From: Ktedonobacteraceae bacterium
GTDB taxonomy: Bacteria > Chloroflexota > Ktedonobacteria > Ktedonobacterales > Ktedonobacteraceae
Assembly: GCA_014896635.1 (NCBI GenBank)
Contig: JADBKA010000049.1
Span: 1-25,198, forward strand
DNA: 25,198 nt
Direction: 5' to 3'
The notes under the pieces were generated by a model that worked only from the letters and a program-made list of their open reading frames with translations, made no database searches and was not told where the DNA came from. This document shows positions 3,049 to 22,017 of this stretch, piece after piece. The number at the start of each line of letters is the position of its first letter. Position 1 is the stretch's first letter. The position numbers were made by a program, and so were the translations under genes.

Positions 3049-3855
3049 ATGGATACCTCTATCCGTTTGTACCATACGAACAGCGATCTGTATTCGTCAT
3101 CCAATGACGAACGGCAGGGCCATTCACCTCTTCCGTTGCCGGCAGATGAGAATGGCGAGACTGAAACAGCGCAGGCGAATGGAAAGGAACAAACAACGTC
3201 CTCTGTATCTCCTGCTACACAGACAGAACGGGTGGACGTGGCGGATTTCGAGGCAATCTTCCTGCACTATCAGACTCCCATTACCAATTTCATCTACCAT
3301 CTCATCGGCAACCGGGAGCAGGCATATGATCTTGCTCAAGATGTATTCGTAAAAGCATATAAGGCTTTACTGGGAGGAACTGTTGTACAGCCGGGAGCAC
3401 TCTCGGCCTGGCTCTATCGCATAGCCGCCAATACGACGACCGATACGCTGCGCCGCCGACGTTTGATTTCCTGGCTGCCGCTCTCACTCTTTAACGAAGA
3501 TCGTGGCATCGGGGCAGGAGTAGTTTCAGATTCCGGCGGGAATCTCACAGAGAACTTCGGGAGCGATGACCAGGCAGGCGAACTGCGGGGTTCCGGCAGC
3601 TCGCTGTACGAGCGCAACAGCTACGACGGCGGGCGTTTCGAGAATCGTGTGGCCGAGCAAGAGATTGTGGAACGGGTATTTCAACAGTTACCACCTAAAT
3701 ATGCCGTCTGTTTATGGCTTTACGAGAACGACGGGCTATCTTGCGCAGAGATCGCGGAAGTGCTTAAAATCAGCCCTTCCGCAGTAAAAATGCGCCTGAT
3801 GCGCGCCCGTGAACGCTTTATCGGGTTGTATAAAAAAGAGGTTGGTGAAGATTGA
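3049..3855 (+). CDS. ECF-type RNA polymerase sigma factor (module 1)
   Basis: 268 residues. Sigma region 2 is at about residues 66-140 (FEAIFLHYQTPITNFIYHL, then NREQAYDLAQDVFVKAYKAL, then LSAWLYRIAANT and a basic RRRR), and region 4 at about 200-265 (QLPPKYAVCLWLYENDGLS, CAEIAEVLKISPSAVKMRLMRARERF), with the usual helix-turn-helix. Two parts are unusual for ECF factors: a polar, probably disordered N-terminal extension of about 63 residues, and a Gly/Ser/Asn-rich linker of about 55 residues between regions 2 and 4. The stop overlaps the start of the next gene (TTGA at 3852-3855), so the anti-sigma factor is translationally coupled. It is clearly paralogous to the sigma factor at 13693, which lacks both insertions. 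Confidence 0.93.
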   Translation: MDTSIRLYHTNSDLYSSSNDERQGHSPLPLPADENGETETAQANGKEQTTSSVSPATQTERVDVADFEAIFLHYQTPITNFIYHLIGNREQAYDLAQDVFVKAYKALLGGTVVQPGALSAWLYRIAANTTTDTLRRRRLISWLPLSLFNEDRGIGAGVVSDSGGNLTENFGSDDQAGELRGSGSSLYERNSYDGGRFENRVAEQEIVERVFQQLPPKYAVCLWLYENDGLSCAEIAEVLKISPSAVKMRLMRARERFIGLYKKEVGED

Positions 3856-5750
3856 ACTGTAGTCAAGCACAGGCTTTGCTTGCCGAATATCGTGAATTGA
3901 AGAATGCTCAGGCGACTAACGGTACGCTTAACGGGTTAGAGGCCCATCTGGCGGAGTGTAGCGCTTGCAGGCAGGTTCTTGCGCAGCAGGAACTGGTCGG
4001 CAGTCGTATACGCTCTTTACCACTGCTGGAACCTTCACCAGAGGCGCGTACTCGTCTCCTGCAAGCGCTCGCAGCAGAACATATGCATTTTTTGCAGCAT
4101 TCCTCACCCGCAAGTATGCCTCCACCGCTGCCGGCTTTCCTGATGCCCTACCTCAAAGAACACGCCAGGCAGGCAAAACAGCCCAATGCTCTGACCGCTC
4201 TTTCTACAGCCGACACAGGACCTGTACCGCTTATTCATGCCAGACAAAGGAGACACAGGCGGCCCCGCAGAGCCGCATTGAACCATTTTGCTATCGTTGG
4301 GGCGGCGGCTGCTATCCTGATGATAGTGATGATGGGTGGCCTGATCTCTCTCTTATTGCTGGCGAATCATGGCGTTCCGAACGGACCAAATACTGTTGAC
4401 ATTGCGAACACTTCCCAGGTTTCTGCCGTAAGCTATACCACAACATCCACATATCCCCACGTGGCAAGTGCAGTTGCCGACCGCAACGCGATCTATTACT
4501 CGGCCTATAACAACGATGCTACGAGCTGGATGCTCCAGCGTTTTGACATTGCTTCCAGGACCAGCACGCCACTGCTCTCGCATGAAAACACGACGCCGTT
4601 GATCGTCCTGGGCAGCTCTCAGAACTGGTTACTGTGGCTGGATATGGGCGAGCGCAAACCCGTGAAAGGCAAATACCTTGCTAGCCAGGAACCTGCTTAC
4701 ACCTATTCCTGGAGCCTGCACGCGCTCTACCTGGGTGATACCGCATCCACAACAGACCAGGCAGCTTCGTCCACGCTACCGGTATCACTGACTTTGCAGA
4801 AGGGTACCTTCGACGAAAGCACAGCCCCATCCTGGATTCGTTCTCCCATCCAGGGCATCTGGTTTATCCAGAATTCGCTCCTGGTCACGACGCTTGATGC
4901 CAAAGGTGGCTCACATCTCTGGCAATATCAGCTCGATCCTGGCAAAAATGCTGCTTCTGCACCTAAAGAGCTTGCCAGCGCCAGCAAAGGGCATGTGCTG
5001 ACTTCACCGACGGCCAGCGGCAACGGATCGAATATCTACTGGGCCGAGGAATGGCAAACATCCGATGGGACACTCCACAGCAACATCTGGCAACAACACA
5101 CAACCGCTATTATGCCGTCCCAACCGGGCAAGTGGGCGCCACACGCCGCCACTGAGAAGCACGTCCTGCTCTCAGACGGTCACTCATTCCATCCACAGGT
5201 GGCTAACGATACGCTTTTCTTCCTAAGCACGGCTCAACAGGCAGGCCAGCCCACCGCGACACAGCAGGCCAGCCAGACCGCTTCAACGACTGCTTCAGCC
5301 ACCTCAACTGCCAGCGCGGCAGCAACTGGCCAACCTTCAGCAACGGCTACCGCTACAACCAATGCCAGCCTCAATGAATCGGTCGCAGCCATCATAAACA
5401 CAACACAGATTGACAGGAACATAGAGGGTGTACTGATGATTTATCCACCGGCAGCAACACAACCGGTTGCGCTGGATAAAGCTGGCAATGGCCCGGTGTT
5501 GGATCTTCAAGGGGGACCACGCTTCCTGCTCTGGCGAGATGCCTCGAAAGGCATTGCTATGTATGATGCCGCTACCCAGCTCCCCGTCACCATCGGGACA
5601 ACGATTCCAAAGGACCCCGCGCTCCTGATCGTCAATGGCGAAACCGTCGTATGGGTGGCGAAAGAGACGCCTGACAAAAATACTACTGGCGGCGGCGTTC
5701 CCATCACGTTCAACCTGTTTAGCTGGCCAACGCGCGTCCCCGGCGAGTAA
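3852..5750 (+). CDS. Membrane anti-sigma factor with large extracytoplasmic domain (module 1)
   Basis: 632 residues, starting at TTG 3852 inside the sigma gene's stop, with GAGG/GGTGAAG upstream as ribosome site. The N-terminus has the zinc-finger anti-sigma signature Cys3 ... His32-x3-Cys36-x2-Cys39 (HLAECSAC). A basic stretch (RQRRHRRPRR) precedes a single membrane segment at about 146-171. The remaining roughly 460 residues would lie outside the membrane. They contain repeated beta-strand-like segments (AIYYSAYNNDATSWMLQRFD, GSNIYWAEEW, LFFLSTA, RFLLWRDAS) that suggest a propeller or similar sensor, interrupted by an Ala/Thr/Ser/Gln-rich low-complexity run at about 460-505. The role, binding and holding the preceding sigma factor until an external signal arrives, follows from family knowledge; the signal is unknown. 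Confidence 0.85.
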   Translation: MNCSQAQALLAEYRELKNAQATNGTLNGLEAHLAECSACRQVLAQQELVGSRIRSLPLLEPSPEARTRLLQALAAEHMHFLQHSSPASMPPPLPAFLMPYLKEHARQAKQPNALTALSTADTGPVPLIHARQRRHRRPRRAALNHFAIVGAAAAILMIVMMGGLISLLLLANHGVPNGPNTVDIANTSQVSAVSYTTTSTYPHVASAVADRNAIYYSAYNNDATSWMLQRFDIASRTSTPLLSHENTTPLIVLGSSQNWLLWLDMGERKPVKGKYLASQEPAYTYSWSLHALYLGDTASTTDQAASSTLPVSLTLQKGTFDESTAPSWIRSPIQGIWFIQNSLLVTTLDAKGGSHLWQYQLDPGKNAASAPKELASASKGHVLTSPTASGNGSNIYWAEEWQTSDGTLHSNIWQQHTTAIMPSQPGKWAPHAATEKHVLLSDGHSFHPQVANDTLFFLSTAQQAGQPTATQQASQTASTTASATSTASAAATGQPSATATATTNASLNESVAAIINTTQIDRNIEGVLMIYPPAATQPVALDKAGNGPVLDLQGGPRFLLWRDASKGIAMYDAATQLPVTIGTTIPKDPALLIVNGETVVWVAKETPDKNTTGGGVPITFNLFSWPTRVPGE

Positions 5751-7259: not shown

Positions 7260-8540
7260 CTAATCGTCAGCAGGGACCTGGCCGTTGCTCTCGACACGAC
7301 TCTCGACGCTGGCGCCAACACCTTTGCGAAGCATGGGGACCTTGTCCAGAGCTTCCCAGGGCGCGTCAATGTCGGTGCGCCCGAAATGACCAAACGCGGC
7401 TGTTGGCTGATAGATTGGCCGTCGTAGATTTAACGACTGAATAATGCCAGCCGGGCGCAGATCAAAGTGCTCGTTGATCAGACGCACAATCTCTTCGTCG
7501 GAGACACGCCCGGTGCCAAACGTCTCGACAAAAATGGCCAGCGGACGCGCCACGCCAATGGCATAGGAAACCTGCAACTCCAGACGGTCGGCCAGGCCAG
7601 CGGCAACCAGGTTCTTTGCGATATGGCGCACCGCATAAGCAGCCGAACGGTCCACCTTTGTCGGATCTTTTCCGCTGAACGCGCCGCCGCCGTGACGGGC
7701 TATGCCACCATAGGTATCGACAATAATTTTGCGCCCGGTCAGGCCCGCATCCCCCATCGGCCCACCTGTGACGAAGCGGCCAGTGGGGTTGACAAAGATT
7801 CTGGTTTTCTTGTCAAGCAAATGTTCAGGGATCACCGGCTTGATGATGTGCTCGATCACATCAGTACGTACCTGCTCAGAGTCGATGTACTCGGCGTGCT
7901 GCGCTGAGATCACCACCGCATCTACACGCACAGGACGCCCATACTCATATTGTACCGTAACCTGGCCCTTGCCATCGGGACGCAAATAGGTCATCGGACC
8001 ATTTCCCCCCCACGATCTACGTCTCACCTGCGAGAGCTGGCGCATCAATCTATGCGCCAGGCTGATCGGCAATGGCATGTACTCCGGCGTTTCATTGCAG
8101 GCAAAACCAATCATAATACCCTGATCGCCGGCCCCGATGCGCTCAAGTTCATCATCGCTCAACAGCCCGCCGTCTCCGCCCCGGCTCTCCAGCGAACGGC
8201 TCACGCCCACGTCAATATCAGCCGACTGCTTACCAATCGAGGTCACAACGCCGCAGGTACGATAATCAAACCCGTAGTCAGCATTAATATAGCCCACCTG
8301 CTCAATCGTCTTCCTCACCACAGCAGGCATGTCGATCCAGGCCGAGGTGGTGATCTCGCCGGCCACCAGCACCAGTCCGGTCGTGGTGGCCGTCTCACAG
8401 GCCACGCGCGCCAACGGGTCCTGTGTAAGGATGGCATCCAGAATCGCATCCGAAATCTGATCACACAACTTATCGGGATGCCCCTCCGTGACCGATTCGC
8501 TGGTAAAAAACGTTTTTGGGCTGTTCATGAAATTACTCAT
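7260..8540 (-). CDS. metK: S-adenosylmethionine synthetase
   Basis: 426 residues from ATG 8540, preceded by AGGAAGGAAAG; an upstream in-frame TTG (8567) is less likely. It condenses methionine and ATP to SAM, releasing phosphate and pyrophosphate. Seen motifs: [20 protein letters not shown] near the N-terminus (ATP-binding His and Mg-binding Asp), the methionine-binding loop [20 protein letters not shown], the [20 protein letters not shown] block, and the phosphate loop [19 protein letters not shown]. At about 426 residues it is somewhat longer than the typical 385-400, with the extra length in the short N-terminal lead and the C-terminal tail. It stands alone behind its own promoter and a SAM-I riboswitch (8697-8808), so high SAM should stop its transcription. 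Confidence 0.97.
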
Positions 8541-8650
8541 GAAACTTTCCTTCCTCTTTTTCTTCAAATGTAGAGATCATCACGTGGTGATTTTTTATAT
8601 TGTTCATCATATGATGAGCAGGAATAAGAAAAGTGCCAGGCGACGGGGTA

Positions 8651-8696: not shown

Positions 8697-8808
8697 CCCT
8701 CATCTTGCGAACAGAGTCCGCCGGAATTGGCACCCTTCCTGCTGCCACGTCAGCAAGTGGGTTGCCGGGCTTCGTCGGGCCGTTTCCCTCCACCTCTCTT
8801 GATGAGAG
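8697..8808 (-). promoter_or_regulatory. SAM-I (S-box) riboswitch aptamer controlling metK
   Basis: Read on the minus strand from 8808: P1 5' strand CUCUCAUC, then the conserved AAGAGAGGUGGAGGGA, the core GGCCCGACGAAGCCCGGCAACC with the kink-turn, a P3 hairpin, GGUGCCAAUUCC, a P4 hairpin GCGGAC-UCU-GUUCGC, and AAGAUGAGGG closing P1 (8 bp with one G-U pair). All parts of the SAM-I consensus are in order. The transcription terminator follows 18 bases downstream, so this is an OFF switch: SAM binding ends transcription before metK. Confidence 0.95.
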
Positions 8809-9100: not shown

Positions 9101-10369
<1,269 letters not shown>

Positions 10370-10447: not shown

Positions 10448-11401
10448 TTATCGCTGACCGTTGAGCCTTAAAAACCATTCGGGATCAAAATGAGAATAAT
10501 TTACCAGTTCCTCGTAGCGCCGCCTGATATCGTCCATCGTCAGAGCGCGCAGGCCACTGATGCTAAAATCGGCGCAGGCAAATGAGCCGATGATATTACC
10601 ATGTACTACCGCCCGTTTAAGATCATCAATCGCGTAACGCCCGTCAACTAGCGGTGAAACGGTCGAGAGATAGCCCAGGAAGCCGCCGGCAAACGCATCA
10701 CCGGCGCCAGTCGGATCAATTACCTCTTCCAGAGGATACGCCGGGGCGCTAAAATAGGTGCCATCTGCGCCAAAAAGGAGCGCGCCATAGCTGCCCAGCT
10801 TCACCACCACGTATTTCAGACCCAGATCAAATAGCCAGCGCACCCCGGCGATAATGCTGGCCTGTTCCGTGTACTGGCGGACCTCTTCTTCGCTCATCAA
10901 CAATACATCGACCCGTTTTATCACTTCAGTAAGCTGCTGGCGAGCCGTCTCGATCCAGTAATTCATCGTATCTAGCACGGTAAGACGCACGTCATCAAGT
11001 TGCCGCAGTACCTCTATCTGTAAATCAGGCTGGATATTCGCCAGAAAGACCAGAGGACATCCGCGCAGTTCCAGAGGTATCTGCGGGTGGAAATCCGCAA
11101 ATACCACCAGTTGCGTATCCAGCGTATCACGCAGATTCATGTCCAGGTAGTAACGCCCGCTCCAATGAAATGTTTTCCCCTCTCGCACCTGTAAGCCTGC
11201 CAGATTGACACGACGCCCGCGCCAGAAATCAAGATGCTCCTGTGGAAAATCGCTGCCCACGACACCTACCAGATTCACCGGGGCATAGATTGAAGCAGCA
11301 GTGACAAAATATGAAGCAGCCCCGCCGAGAATACGTTCACGCCTGGCAAATGGCGTTTCAATCGTGTCCAGGGCCACCGAACCAACAACAAGGATCGACA
11401 C
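10448..11401 (-). CDS. PfkB-family (ribokinase-like) sugar/nucleoside kinase
   Basis: 317 residues from GTG 11401, chosen because GGAGG lies six bases upstream and the protein then begins MSILVVGSVALDTIE, the expected first strand; a TTG at 11431 in the same frame has no ribosome site. The first PfkB signature is seen as RILGGAASYFVTAAS, with GVVGSDFP, and the second as IDPTGAGDAFAGGFLGYL, which contains the catalytic Asp and anion hole. Substrate is not decided by the sequence. Its place between an HD protein and ahcY makes adenosine (the AhcY product) a reasonable guess, with methylthioribose, deoxyribose or ribose-1-phosphate as alternatives given nearby mtnA. Confidence 0.88.
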   Translation of the reverse strand: MSILVVGSVALDTIETPFARRERILGGAASYFVTAASIYAPVNLVGVVGSDFPQEHLDFWRGRRVNLAGLQVREGKTFHWSGRYYLDMNLRDTLDTQLVVFADFHPQIPLELRGCPLVFLANIQPDLQIEVLRQLDDVRLTVLDTMNYWIETARQQLTEVIKRVDVLLMSEEEVRQYTEQASIIAGVRWLFDLGLKYVVVKLGSYGALLFGADGTYFSAPAYPLEEVIDPTGAGDAFAGGFLGYLSTVSPLVDGRYAIDDLKRAVVHGNIIGSFACADFSISGLRALTMDDIRRRYEELVNYSHFDPEWFLRLNGQR

Positions 11402-11458
11402 TTCTATCCTCCAGAAAATAGTAGTAAGCAACCGGCGTTCCCGGCTACTATTGCAGGA

Positions 11459-12100
11459 TCAGACCGGCGTTGCATCGCTCAGATGTTCGATGACGCCATC
11501 GAGAAAAGCAACAGTACGATTGAACTTTTCACGCGCCATTTCACGGGCAGGTGCGGTATACAACGACTGGTAGAGTTCAATGAATCGCTCTTCGACATGG
11601 CGCAAGATGGCCGCCAGTACCTCCCCGCTCACCGCTCGATTTGGATAGCGTGCGCCGAATTCAATCAGCGACGTTACGACTGCGAGGCCGCTGAGCCGTC
11701 CCAGTTTATCGGCGTCATAGAGTACCTGGTGCTCCAGTGGGACTGTTGCTCGTTCTACATCCGGCACAGTCGTAACATGTGATCGGATGATTTGCTCTAC
11801 CGCCTGGATCTGCTCCTCCGGCACATCTAGCTCGCGTAAAAACTCAGTCGCCATTTCAGCCGACTTCACATGATGATTCTGAAACCCGTACTCAACCGTA
11901 GAAATATCGTGTAAATAGCCAGCAACGACCAGCGCATCCATATCAATACTTATTGCCTCTCCCGCCTCTTCCGCCTGTGCCTCCATCTCTAATGCCAGCA
12001 TTTTACAATTCGCTACTACGGCACTGATATAGCGAAAGCCCTCGGCCCCCATGATCTCTTCAGCATAGCGGGCCACAGCCGGCACGACATCAGCATCCAT
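11459..12100 (-). CDS. HD-domain protein with incomplete metal site
   Basis: 213 residues from ATG 12100, which overlaps the mtnA stop by 11 bases (ATGGATGCTGA), indicating translational coupling. The HD doublet is in VVAGYLHDIS (His64-Asp65), followed by HHVKSAEMATEFL (His76/His77), IIRSHV (His108) and LYDADKLGRLSG (Asp129/Asp131), the order expected of an HD phosphohydrolase. However no histidine occurs in residues 1-63, so the first His ligand of the H...HD...D set is missing; the equivalent position near RYISAVV carries Tyr/Ile/Ser. Substrate unknown. A role in the SAM/nucleoside salvage operon is inferred from position only. Confidence 0.8.
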   Translation of the reverse strand: MDADVVPAVARYAEEIMGAEGFRYISAVVANCKMLALEMEAQAEEAGEAISIDMDALVVAGYLHDISTVEYGFQNHHVKSAEMATEFLRELDVPEEQIQAVEQIIRSHVTTVPDVERATVPLEHQVLYDADKLGRLSGLAVVTSLIEFGARYPNRAVSGEVLAAILRHVEERFIELYQSLYTAPAREMAREKFNRTVAFLDGVIEHLSDATPV

Positions 12101-13283
12101 CGTTTGTTACTTCGCTCTCCCTTTTCCTTGAAAAGTTCTGCTCTTGCTGCGTGCAGAGCCGGCACAGCGTGCTCTCATACGGTGGCCAGGCAATGCCACG
12201 CTCAGTAATGATAGCGGTCACGTAGGTATGAGGAGTCACATCAAAAGCTGGATTGGCTACTGTGATACCTTCAGGAGCAATCCTTACGCCGCGTATCGTT
12301 GTTACTTCTTCGGCTCTGCGCTGTTCAAGCGGAATGCGTTCTCCGCCAGCCAGTTTGAGATCAATGGTGGAACAGGGGGCAACGACATAAAAAGGTATCC
12401 CGTGCGCCTGAGCGAGCACAGCCAGACCGTACGTACCGATTTTATTCGCCACATCCCCATTGGCTGCGATGCGATCAGCCCCGACAAAAACGGCTTTGAT
12501 GTCCCCATGGCGCATAAAATGCGCAGCCATGTTATCGGTGATTAGCGTCAGAGGCACTCCCTGCTGCTGCAATTCCCAGGCCGTCAACCTAGCGCCCTGA
12601 AGCACAGGGCGAGTCTCATCGACAAAAACATGCACGCGCTTCCCTGCCCGGTGCGCCACATAGATCGGGGCCAGCGCGGTTCCCAGGCCTGCTGTTGCCA
12701 GTGCACCGGTGTTACAGTGCGTGAGCAAAATATCCCCATCGGCGATCAATTCCGCGCCATAGTTCCCCATCAGCGCGCAGGCGGCCTCGTCCTCGTCTGC
12801 AATAGCCTGCGCTTCGTTTTTCAAGCGCGCGACCAGTTGCGAAACGGAAACTTGCTCCTCAACAGCCTGCTTCAGGCAACGCTCCATACGTTCCAGCGCC
12901 CAGAAAAGGTTGACGGCGGTTGGCCGTGTGCGAGCCAGCATGTGCGCCACTGCCAGGAGATGCTCCTGTATTGTCTCCAGCGGCGGGGCGTGTGGATGTT
13001 CACGAGCAAAACGGCGTGCTGCCAGCGCCATACCGAATGCCGCAGCTATGCCTATAGCAGGCGCTCCTCGCACCTTGAGCGTCTCGATAGCCTCCGCCAC
13101 CGCGCGCTCATGCGCCAGGCGCAGGTATGTCACTTGCAGCGGCAGTTGCGATTGATCTATAAGGCACACTGCCGCCTCCGCCATTCCCGCTATCTCTCTT
13201 ACCTGCTCGCCTGTTTCCTCCCACCAGACTGCTCGCACATGGCCCGGACCGTTCTTTGGGCCAGCATTGCCTGTACCAGCCAC
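12090..13283 (-). CDS. mtnA: Methylthioribose-1-phosphate isomerase
   Basis: 397 residues from GTG 13283, chosen because AGGAGG (13293-13298) lies nine bases upstream. The frame is open further upstream to 13409 but that part is arginine-rich and has no ribosome site. Family motifs begin about 15 residues in: VWWEE, AVCLIDQSQLP, LKVRGAPAIGIAAAFGMALA, RPTAVNLFWALERM, the catalytic Cys in LLTHCNTGALATAGLGTALA, VDETRPVLQGARLTAWEL, and the catalytic Asp in VFVGADRIAANGDVANKIGT. It converts 5-methylthioribose-1-phosphate to methylthioribulose-1-phosphate in methionine salvage. Relatives act on deoxyribose or ribose phosphates, so the exact substrate is not certain. It heads the operon and carries a short charged C-terminal tail beyond the normal family end. 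Confidence 0.92.
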   Translation of the reverse strand: MAGTGNAGPKNGPGHVRAVWWEETGEQVREIAGMAEAAVCLIDQSQLPLQVTYLRLAHERAVAEAIETLKVRGAPAIGIAAAFGMALAARRFAREHPHAPPLETIQEHLLAVAHMLARTRPTAVNLFWALERMERCLKQAVEEQVSVSQLVARLKNEAQAIADEDEAACALMGNYGAELIADGDILLTHCNTGALATAGLGTALAPIYVAHRAGKRVHVFVDETRPVLQGARLTAWELQQQGVPLTLITDNMAAHFMRHGDIKAVFVGADRIAANGDVANKIGTYGLAVLAQAHGIPFYVVAPCSTIDLKLAGGERIPLEQRRAEEVTTIRGVRIAPEGITVANPAFDVTPHTYVTAIITERGIAWPPYESTLCRLCTQQEQNFSRKRESEVTNDGC

Positions 13284-13466
13284 CAGGTCTCTCCTCCTCT
13301 TTCTGCTAAAATCTCTTCTGCCAGAGCCGTTCTGGATCACAGAACGAGACGTTGTACATATTATCTCTGTTTTCCAACGAAGTGATTTCTGCTGTGAAGC
13401 TCGCTCCACCCAATAGTACTAATCTGTGGGTGAATAATTGCTGAATTTCTACCTGAGTATGTTACC

Positions 13467-13495
13467 ATGATAGACGATACAGTACGCAACTGCAA
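13467..13495 (-). promoter_or_regulatory. Candidate housekeeping promoter of the mtnA operon
   Basis: Minus strand TTGCAG (13495-13490), 17-base spacer, TATCAT (13472-13467). Four to five matches in each box. The leader to the mtnA GTG would be about 175 bases. It lies downstream of the ECF-like element at 13520-13544, so the operon may have two promoters. Confidence 0.5.
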
Positions 13496-13519
13496 GTGTA
13501 AATAACTACATTGGCATGT

Positions 13520-13544
13520 TACTGATAGCGTCGGTGTCCGTTCC
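13520..13544 (-). promoter_or_regulatory. ECF-type promoter element facing mtnA
   Basis: On the minus strand, GGAACGGACA (13544-13535) is followed by CC, then GACG-N2-ATC-N-GTA ending at 13520. GGAAC to GTA spacing is 17. The same word and downstream half occur in inverted orientation at 13647-13670. GGAAC is the classic -35 core of ECF promoters. Confidence 0.6.
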
Positions 13545-13646
13545 ACTACACAGAGGGGAAAGCCTGACCCCTGTGATCTTCCAGCCAGATCGGTCGGCTC
13601 ACTGCCAGGCATGCGCCCATTCATAGCGAGGCTACAACCTCTTGAG

Positions 13647-13670
13647 GGAACGGACAGGACGGAATCTGTA
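13647..13670 (+). promoter_or_regulatory. ECF-type promoter element facing the second sigma factor
   Basis: GGAACGGACA (13647-13656), one base, then GACG-N2-ATC-N-GTA ending at 13670; GGAAC to GTA spacing is 16. Initiation near 13677 would put the AAAGGAAT ribosome site at the very start of the message and ATG 13693 about 16 bases in. This is expected if the sigma factor activates its own operon. Confidence 0.6.
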
Positions 13671-13692
13671 GCTCTCAAAGGAATAGTAGCGC

Positions 13693-14229
13693 ATGGTCCG
13701 GGTGGAAACACAGGAAAGTTCGTGGTCCTTTGAACAAATCTACGATGAATATAAAACGCCTATCTATAACTATGTCTATCACCTGGTTGGAGACCGCGAA
13801 CAAGCAGACGATCTAACACAAGATACGTTTTTAAAAGCATTCAAAGCTCTGCCAAAGATGGATGCAAATTTGAAGTTATCGGCGTGGCTCTATCGCATCG
13901 CAACAAATACAGCGTACGATGCACTGCGCCGCCGTAAACTGATCGCATGGCTCCCCTGGCAGGAGCTTGATCGTGAGCCTGCCGATGTAGAGAGTGCTGA
14001 TCCGCAGGAAATCTACGGTACGACCGAACTGGTACGCGCAGCTCTACGGCGTATGCCGCAGCAGTACCGGGCGGCTTTGCTCCTCTATACCCAGGAAGGC
14101 TTCACTTACAGCGAGATTGCTCAAACGTTGAACATCGCTGAAAGCGGCGTCAAAATGTATCTTTCGCGTGCGCGCCAATCCTTCAGGGAACACTACCGCG
14201 CTCTGGAGCAAGGAGGAAGTAACAAATGA
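13693..14229 (+). CDS. ECF-type RNA polymerase sigma factor (module 2)
   Basis: 178 residues, a normal ECF length. Region 2 at about 12-85 (FEQIYDEYKTPIYNYVYHLV, DREQADDLTQDTFLKAFKAL, LSAWLYRIATNTAYDALRRRKLIAWLPW) and region 4 at about 115-170 (RMPQQYRAALLLYTQEGFTYSEIAQTLNIAESGVKMYLSRAR). AAAGGAAT lies nine bases before ATG 13693. The wording in region 2 is very close to that of the sigma factor at 3049, so the two are paralogues. Its stop overlaps the start of the anti-sigma gene by four bases (ATGA at 14226-14229). An ECF-like promoter immediately upstream suggests self-activation. Confidence 0.95.
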   Translation: MVRVETQESSWSFEQIYDEYKTPIYNYVYHLVGDREQADDLTQDTFLKAFKALPKMDANLKLSAWLYRIATNTAYDALRRRKLIAWLPWQELDREPADVESADPQEIYGTTELVRAALRRMPQQYRAALLLYTQEGFTYSEIAQTLNIAESGVKMYLSRARQSFREHYRALEQGGSNK

Positions 14230-16106
14230 ATTGTGAGCACGTCAGGGAAATGCTCAGTGCTTACCTTGACAATGCTCTCTTTTCGGAAGAACGCGAGTCG
14301 GTTGCTGTCCATCTCCAATCCTGCCAGGCATGTAATGCAATACTTGCAGATTACCGACGCTTTGACACACTGCTTTCTGAACTTCCCCGTGTCAGCCCTG
14401 ATCCTTCTCTGCACATGAGAATATTTTCTTCACCTGAATATCTGGAACTCACCGGCACCTACAGCGGTTCCGAGCAGTTCAGCGATCCCACGCTTCCACA
14501 CAGGCGCTTGCGGCGCGATTCTGCCGACCGGCCACATCTTGTAGCACTACCTGGAGGCCGCTTATCGAATGCGCGCGCCGAAACAGTACCCGGTCCTGCT
14601 GTCCAGGCGACTCCCAGGGGGGGAGTAAGCAAAAAAACGCTGTTCATTATGCGGGCAGTCATCGCAGCCTGTCTTCTCCTGACCTTGCTCATAGGTGGCT
14701 TTACCGGCTGGAACATCCTCCAGCAACGGAACCAGGCCACCCGTCATACCACCGGTATTACACCGCCCGCCGACTTGCAGCAGGGACCCCTTCCTGCCGG
14801 CCTGCGTTTCGTTTTCCTGCGCGATGGCGCCCTCTGGAGCGCGCCAACCGATGGCAGCACCAGTATCGCTCGCCTGACACCCGACAACACGACGGTAGCA
14901 GCAAACTGGATAGTACGCCCGGCTCGCCCTGGCCGCTCTGCTGGCAATATGCTTGCCTATATTGATCTGCAACAGGCGCGCATTCACACCATCCGCAGCG
15001 ATGGACAGAGCGACACCATCATCAATATGCCGCTGGTCAAGCCGGGTACATCTCCAATCTCTCTCTGGGATACCGCAACTGGTGCTACTATCCTTAACAG
15101 CCTGGCCTGGTCACCTGATGGTACTCAACTGGCCTTTGCCGCCGATCCACAGGGAACTGGCCTTCCCGGCCTCTATATCCACTCAACGGCGACAGGAACC
15201 GTTCAGCAGGTGCCCCTCCCCACGCCCGGTATAGTCTCGCATCTCTCCTGGTCGCCCGATGGTATACGTATTGCCTTTGTGCTCAACCACGATGGAAAAG
15301 AGAGCTTGCTGGACTACAATACGCAGAATCACGGCATGCTTACCATTGCCTCACCAGCGAATATGCCTCTCGCTGCCGGAGAGCGAGTGCTGACACTTGC
15401 CTGGTCCCCAACTACAAATGCGCCAGCCGTTACCTGGAGCACCGGGAACGAGGCTGTTATTCACAGCATCTGGCTGCAACATATCGGGACGGCGAATACC
15501 AGTATACCCCGTTCCCTGATTAGCGGTAATTTTGTTCAGGCTACCTACAGCCAGAAAGGACCGGGTGGCACAGGGAACTGGCTGCTTATTAACCTTCAGG
15601 CCGGCCTGCCAGGCGATCTTATATCAATCGACATCAATGCAACCGCCACCCAGCTCACTTATGGGAAGCAGGCCAGTTTCGCCCGCTGGTCTCCCGATGG
15701 CCGGCAAGTCATCTACTTGAATGCCTTCTCAGGGGGAACGGGGACGCTCCATCTCGTGAATAGCATTACGCGCAGCGATACGCAGATTGCCGCCGGCGTT
15801 ACCAATGATCCCTTGCCGGCCTGGTCGATGGATAGCCAGTATCTGGCGTACAGCAGCAGCACACAGACGCAGATTATCAACACCCGGTCACTTCAGGCAA
15901 CACAGGCAGTTCGACCATTCCCGCCGCCGGGTCCTCAGGGTCCAGCTACCACTCTGAGCTGGTCAGCCGCATCACCCTCCCAGTTGGTCGTGGCTCTGGG
16001 CGACGGCCAGCAAGGTATCTACCTGGTCGATATCCAGCGCAGTACCTCTTCACGCCTGGACCAGAAGGGCATACAGGGTCCTGTTTCATGGTCGCTCATC
16101 CCTTAG
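14226..16106 (+). CDS. Membrane anti-sigma factor with WD40/TolB-like propeller (module 2)
   Basis: 626 residues, ATG 14226 with AAGGAGG upstream, overlapping the sigma gene. The N-terminus has Cys3 ... His29-x3-Cys33-x2-Cys36 (HLQSCQAC), the zinc anti-sigma fold. A basic, Pro/Gly-rich linker leads to one membrane segment at about 139-162. The exported part of about 460 residues contains repeats of the PD40/TolB type: LAWSPDGTQLAFA, LSWSPDGIRIAFV, ARWSPDGRQVIYL, PAWSMDSQYLAYS, plus more divergent blades, which together suggest a beta-propeller. It presumably holds the sigma factor at the membrane and releases it on an external cue. The cytoplasmic half matches the anti-sigma at 3852; the outer part is far more divergent. 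Confidence 0.9.
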   Translation: MNCEHVREMLSAYLDNALFSEERESVAVHLQSCQACNAILADYRRFDTLLSELPRVSPDPSLHMRIFSSPEYLELTGTYSGSEQFSDPTLPHRRLRRDSADRPHLVALPGGRLSNARAETVPGPAVQATPRGGVSKKTLFIMRAVIAACLLLTLLIGGFTGWNILQQRNQATRHTTGITPPADLQQGPLPAGLRFVFLRDGALWSAPTDGSTSIARLTPDNTTVAANWIVRPARPGRSAGNMLAYIDLQQARIHTIRSDGQSDTIINMPLVKPGTSPISLWDTATGATILNSLAWSPDGTQLAFAADPQGTGLPGLYIHSTATGTVQQVPLPTPGIVSHLSWSPDGIRIAFVLNHDGKESLLDYNTQNHGMLTIASPANMPLAAGERVLTLAWSPTTNAPAVTWSTGNEAVIHSIWLQHIGTANTSIPRSLISGNFVQATYSQKGPGGTGNWLLINLQAGLPGDLISIDINATATQLTYGKQASFARWSPDGRQVIYLNAFSGGTGTLHLVNSITRSDTQIAAGVTNDPLPAWSMDSQYLAYSSSTQTQIINTRSLQATQAVRPFPPPGPQGPATTLSWSAASPSQLVVALGDGQQGIYLVDIQRSTSSRLDQKGIQGPVSWSLIP

Positions 16107-21540: not shown

Positions 21541-22017
21541 TTGAGCACTGTACACAAACCGGTGCAGGTCGGCGACCAGGCACCCGACTTCACTTTGCCA
21601 TCACAAAATGGGCAACAGATAAGCCTGCACGATTTTATCGGCAAAGCTGCAATCGTCGTCTATTTCTATCCCAAAGATGAGACGGCGGGCTGCACTGCCG
21701 AGGCATGCGCTTTCAGAGACAGCTATGAAGTGTTTAAAGAGGCCGGAGCGGAAGTCATCGGTATCAGCTCTGACACAGCGGAATCGCACCGGCAGTTCGC
21801 GGCCAGGCACAGACTGCCATTTTTGCTGCTGAGTGACAGGAACGGAGCCGTACGCAAGCTGTATGGCGTACCCGCTACCTTTGGCCTGCTACCGGGCCGT
21901 GTCACCTATGTTATTGACAAAGAGGGCATTGTGCGTCACGTGTTCTCGTCGCAATTCACGCCGCAGAAGCACATTACCGAAGCCCTGCACACGATTCAAG
22001 CACTCACAACAAAGTAG
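21541..22017 (+). CDS. bcp: Thiol peroxidase, PrxQ/BCP type peroxiredoxin
   Basis: 158 residues from TTG 21541, chosen because AAAGGA lies eight bases upstream and the protein then begins MSTVHKPVQVGDQAPDFTLPS, the normal family start; another in-frame TTG at 21487 has no ribosome site. It reduces hydrogen peroxide and organic peroxides using thioredoxin-like donors. The peroxidatic Cys is in ETAGCTAEACAFRD, with a second Cys five residues on, the Cys-x4-Cys layout of atypical two-cysteine PrxQ. VVYFYPKDETAGC and GVPATFGLLPGRVTYVIDKEGIV are family blocks. It is a single gene between pepA and moaD. Confidence 0.93.
   Translation: MSTVHKPVQVGDQAPDFTLPSQNGQQISLHDFIGKAAIVVYFYPKDETAGCTAEACAFRDSYEVFKEAGAEVIGISSDTAESHRQFAARHRLPFLLLSDRNGAVRKLYGVPATFGLLPGRVTYVIDKEGIVRHVFSSQFTPQKHITEALHTIQALTTK

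Follow-up and report, generated by a model that had tools for sequence, protein, structure and literature searches.

The window analysed here, 25,198 nucleotides of a Ktedonobacteraceae bacterium, holds an ECF sigma factor gene and a SAM-salvage operon that are read away from each other, and the question raised by the locus is what the DNA between them serves. ECF factors commonly activate their own operon. The preliminary description had accordingly proposed two inverted ECF-like promoters in this region, one facing the sigma gene (here the plus copy) and one facing mtnA (here the minus element), and had suggested a genome-wide search for further sites. The features discussed below are collected in Table 1.

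Table 1. Features of the sigma locus and its surroundings, ordered by position in the window
Feature	Position	Strand	Description
metK, methionine adenosyltransferase	7260..8567	-	NCBIfam TIGR01034
ahcY, adenosylhomocysteinase	9101..10369	-	NCBIfam TIGR00936
PfkB-family kinase	10448..11431	-	Pfam PfkB
HD-domain hydrolase	11459..12100	-	Pfam HD
mtnA, methylthioribose-1-phosphate isomerase	12090..13283	-	NCBIfam TIGR00512; predicted start codon
AATAGTACTA, holding the palindrome TAGTACTA	13412..13421		Candidate regulator site for the sigma-side promoter
Extended -10 TGTTACCAT	13460..13468	+	Putative housekeeping-type promoter towards sigma, from conservation; predicted start about 13475
Housekeeping-like promoter towards mtnA	13467..13495	-	TTGCAG (13495-13490), 17 nt, TATCAT (13472-13467); read from sequence
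Minus element	13518..13544	-	GGAACGG (13544-13538), 17 nt from GGAAC to GTA, GTAAC (13522-13518); ECF-type promoter-like
Candidate long leader stem (sigma mRNA)	13535..13656	+	Left arm 13535-13544, right arm 13647-13656
Plus copy	13647..13670	+	GGAACGGACA, then GTA (13668-13670); second -35 word, kept at family level; complementary to the minus element
ECF sigma factor, 178 aa	13693..14229	+	Pfam Sigma70_r2, Sigma70_r4_2
Anti-sigma factor	14226..16106	+	Zinc-finger N terminus (Pfam zf-HC2), beta-propeller repeats further on (PD40)

A conserved sigma factor beside a SAM-salvage operon

The gene names proposed earlier, mtnA, HD, PfkB and ahcY on the minus strand and sigma/anti-sigma on the plus strand, were confirmed by Pfam and NCBIfam profiles. 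The sigma protein matched Sigma70_r2 at residues 16-82 and Sigma70_r4_2 at residues 112-162 of its 178 aa, and scored above the cut-off for NCBIfam sigma70-ECF. No Pfam match to region 1 or 3 was found in it, leaving sigma regions 2 and 4 only, the make-up of an ECF factor. The anti-sigma gene follows directly with a 4-bp overlap, suggesting that the two are co-transcribed. Similarity and an AGGAGG at 13298-13293 indicated GTG 13283, some 230 nt away from the minus element, as the probable start of mtnA, rather than 13409, the limit of the open frame. Further along the minus strand, a SAM-I riboswitch (RF00162, 76.8 bits, 8697-8808) lies ahead of metK, which thus has SAM control of its own; a search of 13200-13720 with Rfam found no riboswitch ahead of mtnA. 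Another ECF sigma gene is present in the window at 3049-5750; its 632-aa partner lacks a Pfam match and has an N terminus that weakly resembles that of the anti-sigma factor described here.

Relatives were collected around the genome G001, which carries the closest mtnA locus among the 80 matches listed (L001, a Ktedonobacteraceae MAG, 67% identity) and served as the centre of a family search (29 genomes) and a class search (47 genomes). The sigma factor was found in all 29 family genomes, with best matches 87-95% identical and a second match of 41-42% in three of them. Across the class, 45 of the 47 genomes each contained one match at E <= 1e-45 (68-95% identity). In a phylum sample of 400 genomes, 49 matched at 1e-40, namely the same 45 and four at 42-49%, the best match outside the 45 being 49% identical. 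Where 20-kb stretches were available (13 family genomes), ahcY and metK (82-88%) fell below the sigma factor, and mtnA and HD (59-74%) and the anti-sigma factor (34-67%, partial matches) fell far below it. By these identities, conservation of the sigma protein is unusually strong for an ECF factor.

The anti-sigma factor kept its zinc-finger N terminus across relatives and differed in the remainder, with long matches in some genomes and, elsewhere, matches limited to roughly the N-terminal 60-170 residues. A truncated second sigma copy, 68% identical over residues 8-83, was seen directly upstream of the intact gene in G047 (L165 7794-8120). Five loci outside the family (L165, L167, L171, L178 and L179) showed, by eye, an apparent N-terminal extension of the sigma factor, with a start about 90 nt upstream and a ribosome-binding site of its own.

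An outward-facing element that stays with the sigma gene

Within the window, the 10-bp word GGAACGGACA at 13647-13656 (+) and its exact inverse at 13535-13544 (-) lie at the positions and on the strands first reported, as do the GTA triplets at 13668-13670 (+) and 13522-13520 (-), with GGAAC-to-GTA distances of 16 and 17 nt. Allowing at most one mismatch, GGAACGGACA occurs only at these two places; 1.26 occurrences are expected, and 34 of 100 shuffles had two or more. The pattern GGAAC-N16-18-GTA gave three matches against 1.14 expected, a number reached in 9 of 100 shuffles, and the third match (21839-21863) is inside an AhpC/TSA gene. The half-site pattern GACG-N2-ATC-N-GTA, which had been taken as common to the two promoters, is indeed present in both copies, but among relatives neither the shared GACG nor the ATC recurred, unlike the -35 words and the GTA triplets. 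Judged from the window alone, the word pair is barely beyond chance, and its reality rests on conservation.

When relatives were compared, the minus element, which points away from the sigma gene, was found in all 45 readable sequences (the window and 44 genomes, G024 being left out as it offers no usable upstream DNA), and its orientation was fixed. The search expression, written after inspecting the sequences, allowed N15-N18; the spacing was N17 in 23 sequences and N18 in 22. AAC was present in 44 of the 45, and the following GG and the GTA in every one. The class-wide constant part is GnAACGG (GAC once), 17-18 nt and GTA(A/G)C, and two of the three changes at position 2 (GCAAC and GAAAC) keep AAC. 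In the available text of PMC3426412, ECF promoters in general have AAC at -35 and CGT at -10, and in that of PMC7083833, EcfG promoters read GGAAC-N16-CGTT, GCAAC ranking second in frequency among their -35 words. The minus element has the form of an ECF promoter, with AAC in its -35 part, GT in its -10 part and spacings of N17 and N18 only. This promoter geometry, the class-wide conservation and the tie to an ECF sigma gene uphold its description as ECF-like. With a probability that we put at about 0.48, the minus element (13544-13518) is an ECF-type promoter within the sigma gene's own control region.

Two other origins were considered for the minus side. A coding origin, as a short upstream ORF or an N-terminal extension, was rejected because the 17- and 18-nt spacers place the same conserved nucleotides in two frames and because the ATG varies. 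A small RNA ending in a terminator found no support either, as no terminator was detected on the minus side in any of the 45 sequences (shuffled mean 1.1).

The genome-wide search was carried out in the 29 family genomes, and 41 of the 46 matches to GGAACGGACA-N10-13-GTA lay at the sigma locus. The same pattern read backwards, as a control, gave 42 matches, so the five off-locus matches are no more than chance. For GGAAC-N17/18-GTAACAT, 23 of 45 matches were at the locus and 22 elsewhere. A search that allowed one mismatch gave 22 of 29 matches at the locus and 7 elsewhere. Off-locus matches were singletons except for two look-alike pairs of GGAAC-N17/18-GTAACAT. Six off-locus loci were inspected (both look-alike pairs and two of the five singles, none from those first appearing in the one-mismatch search), and all lay in stop-free stretches of 150 to 770 codons. 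A wider regulon defined by pattern was rejected on these grounds. The sequences therefore suggest that the minus element is nearly unique genome-wide, and targets with weaker sites may exist.

The preliminary description had also proposed that both promoters were selected to couple a membrane-sensed signal, through the sigma factor, to the SAM cycle and methylthioadenosine salvage. Such coupling agrees with the divergent mtnA to the left of sigma in 22 of 27 family genomes read (28 genomes other than G024, less G029), where HD, PfkB, ahcY and metK come next if the DNA is longer, and with genomes outside the family in which mtnA (G030) or PfkB (G031-G034) faces away from sigma. The minus element was kept, however, where the operon had changed. 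It was retained where HD adjoins (G001, G006 and G012), where only a 40-residue mtnA remnant was matched (G009) and where 9.8 kb on the left side showed no SAM gene (G003). It was likewise retained where the nearest Pfam-supported left gene lies on the sigma strand (G037, G038, G040, G042 and G043), these neighbours being an aldehyde dehydrogenase twice, a histidine kinase, an alpha/beta hydrolase and a glycosyl hydrolase 57. Left-neighbour assignments rest on Pfam-supported genes, small intervening ORFs being outside the count. The remainder of the 16 non-family genomes comprised G044, with a malic enzyme facing away from sigma, G047, with the truncated sigma copy on the sigma strand and then mtnA, and four without an assigned left neighbour (G039, G041, G045 and G046). 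In G001 (L001 and L181) an mtnA is on another contig, where the exact element is absent; the element was found only at the sigma locus, having stayed with HD-PfkB-ahcY and sigma.

Since the minus element is kept where mtnA is a remnant or absent or the neighbour is reversed, it follows sigma and not the SAM operon. In the window, moreover, a housekeeping-like promoter lies between the minus element and mtnA. The claim that two promoters tie a signal to the SAM cycle was thus not sustained, conservation of the minus element being independent of mtnA and the operon; selection for such coupling is quite unlikely, and the methionine-salvage link in the window is probably incidental. A promoter beside a metabolic operon need not serve that operon, and genomes with a changed neighbour can tell. 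Taken together, the lack of a small-RNA terminator and of a constant downstream gene argues against a purely outward function for the minus element and fits a local one.

The sigma mRNA leader and the second word

Upstream of the minus element, all 29 family sequences carry TGnTAnnAT directed towards sigma. Within 150 nt, the highest-scoring sigma-70-type candidate gave a combined p of 1.8e-13 against mononucleotide shuffles over 45 related, and so non-independent, sequences. The score of this sigma-side promoter was clear outside the family (<=0.04 in 13 of 16 genomes, the exceptions being G037, G038 and G039) and weak inside it, at 0.20 in the window (20% of shuffles reach it) and 0.1-0.6 in most others; another site outscored TGnTAnnAT in L092, L106, L107 and L110, and a consensus scan omits the sigma-side promoter. 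Because the score is weak there, the promoter rests on conservation within the family. AATAGTACTA lies 47-49 nt before TGnTAnnAT in all 29 family sequences (the window and 28 genomes), a placement that would be expected of an activator site near -57. On the opposite strand, the -10 block facing mtnA is also conserved in the family alignment and overlaps the sigma-side block in the window; the consensus scan omits 13467-13495 (-) and lists another minus candidate, 13502-13474. The sigma-side block was kept in G003, where mtnA is missing from the locus, indicating that it serves sigma. As the predicted sigma-side promoter lies upstream of both words, these probably form part of the sigma mRNA leader.

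The plus copy proved less constant than the minus element. Its word was GGAACGGAC in 24 of the 29 family sequences and degenerate in G020-G023 and G025. GTA followed in 21 of the 29, at N14 (1), N15 (5), N16 (12) or N17 (3), and was absent in eight; in G002, G003 and G027 the word is intact and the GTA mutated. Within 450 nt upstream of sigma, none of the 16 non-family genomes had GGAAC-N13-19-GTA on the plus strand, GGAACGG alone occurred in three (G033, G037 and G038) and GGAAC in nine. Transcription from the plus copy would begin at the ribosome-binding site, some 16 nt from the ATG. In its first form, the proposal that the plus copy is the sigma promoter was not supported: the word is kept in most of the family, but four GTA spacings and the position of the start speak against it. 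Given its varied or absent GTA, that start and the conserved extended -10 further upstream, the plus copy is the weaker promoter candidate. It may act as an autoregulatory promoter within the family, and the distribution suggests that it is probably not the ancestral arrangement.

The intact plus word beside a mutated GTA in those three genomes would also suit another DNA-binding regulator of the sigma gene, for which both words would be the site and the likeness to ECF promoters accidental. At the family level the word, TGGAACGGACAA, exceeds the length that a -35 box needs, which agrees with such a regulator and counts against the ECF-promoter reading. The word is not a palindrome, however, and across the class only GnAACGG (GAC once) and a GTA 17-18 nt away stay constant, which is promoter geometry. 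We consider this regulator very unlikely.

The complementarity of the two words raises a further alternative, in which, within the 5' leader of sigma mRNA, they pair at the foot of a long hairpin that controls translation or decay of the message. Both words lie downstream of the predicted sigma promoter, the right arm just before the ribosome-binding site, and the arms paired with a probability of at least 0.78 in 22 of the 24 family leaders folded (G020-G023 and G025 were not among them). Furthermore, the inner flanks paired better with their own than with a swapped partner on the plus strand (p 0.004-0.007) and not on the minus strand (0.35-0.47), although this p of about 0.006 is one of several tests run and is suggestive only. 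Other observations do not fit pairing. The arms themselves show almost no covariation: in the 24 sequences with the plus word preserved, the base before GGAAC is always T in the minus element, whereas the plus copy has T in 21, A in two and G in one. Two-sided arm changes occur only in the G020 clade, which breaks three pairs, and the outer flanks gave no signal (p 0.12-0.47). Outside the family, core pairing was not above shuffles (combined p 0.11, 16 genomes), and the covariation p of 0.003 in the 16 genomes was not strand-specific (minus strand 0.005; in 13 genomes, 0.004 and 0.039). The window leader itself folded only slightly better than shuffles (z -1.66), and Rfam gave no match in 13200-13720 up to E 1. 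RNA control of sigma-factor mRNA leaders is known for E. coli rpoS and rpoH, which are alike in their long leader and predicted stem before the start codon and differ in not encoding ECF factors. It is likely enough that the family has a structured leader. Such a leader does not account for the invariance of the minus element across the class, or for an invariant left arm beside a drifting right arm, and we regard the hairpin as an unlikely explanation of the pair.

A possible self-limiting circuit and known systems

If the minus element is an ECF-type promoter, it would probably be read by the neighbouring sigma factor. Once freed from the anti-sigma factor, sigma would direct RNA polymerase to start at the minus element and to run away from the sigma gene, crossing at once the housekeeping-type promoter that makes the sigma mRNA. 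The distance between the two is about 50 bp (55 in the window, 41-58 in most sequences and up to about 110). Head-on transcription would then limit the sigma gene, amounting to negative feedback, and outward reading would enter mtnA-HD-PfkB-ahcY in the window and most of the family; in the remaining genomes it would meet different genes or no gene. On this view the plus copy would have arisen later, within the family, as a second -35 word, with a possible role in some positive autoregulation or in mRNA pairing with the minus element.

Several points weigh against the ECF-promoter reading. No gene is constantly downstream of the minus element, no terminator indicative of a small RNA was detected on that side, the sigma-side promoter scores weakly in the window and most of the family, the strand-specific covariation in the leader favours an RNA role, and it would be odd for so conserved an ECF factor to have a single clear target. 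A broader proposal, which we hold only tentatively and consider rather unlikely, is the following. Ktedonobacteria would possess a core ECF sigma factor with essentially one strongly conserved target, a leader-internal promoter firing against the housekeeping promoter of the sigma gene, in a class-wide self-limiting circuit of one locus to which the SAM-salvage operon is a passenger output in one family. If the minus element does limit the sigma gene, the usual sign of ECF autoregulation would be reversed. The best-conserved promoter-like site of the locus points away from an ECF gene that is conserved like a housekeeping gene.

In titles and abstract openings of the open-licence PubMed Central literature on Ktedonobacter or Chloroflexi ECF factors, on ECF factors with SAM or methylthioadenosine, and on antisense, leaders and GGAAC, we did not find this system described. 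The closest comparison is with the autoregulated ECF promoters, as presented in the available text of PMC3426412. These systems resemble the present one in combining an ECF sigma factor with an anti-sigma factor, which is co-transcribed there, and in the AAC of the -35, the GT in the -10 and the range of spacing. They differ in that the class-wide element here points away from sigma and the sigma-facing copy is found at the family level only. The EcfG system of alphaproteobacteria (PMC7083833, same limitation to the available text) shares the -35 word, the spacing and the GCAAC variant; its general stress promoters serve 79 transcription units, whereas one locus was found here and the anti-sigma factor is a zinc-finger protein. 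SigAb of Acinetobacter, in the part of PMC12153292 that is available, is likewise an ECF factor, and its small regulon extends to non-coding RNA, but it recognizes the -35 GTCAAC, and the promoter described there lies upstream of sigAb itself.
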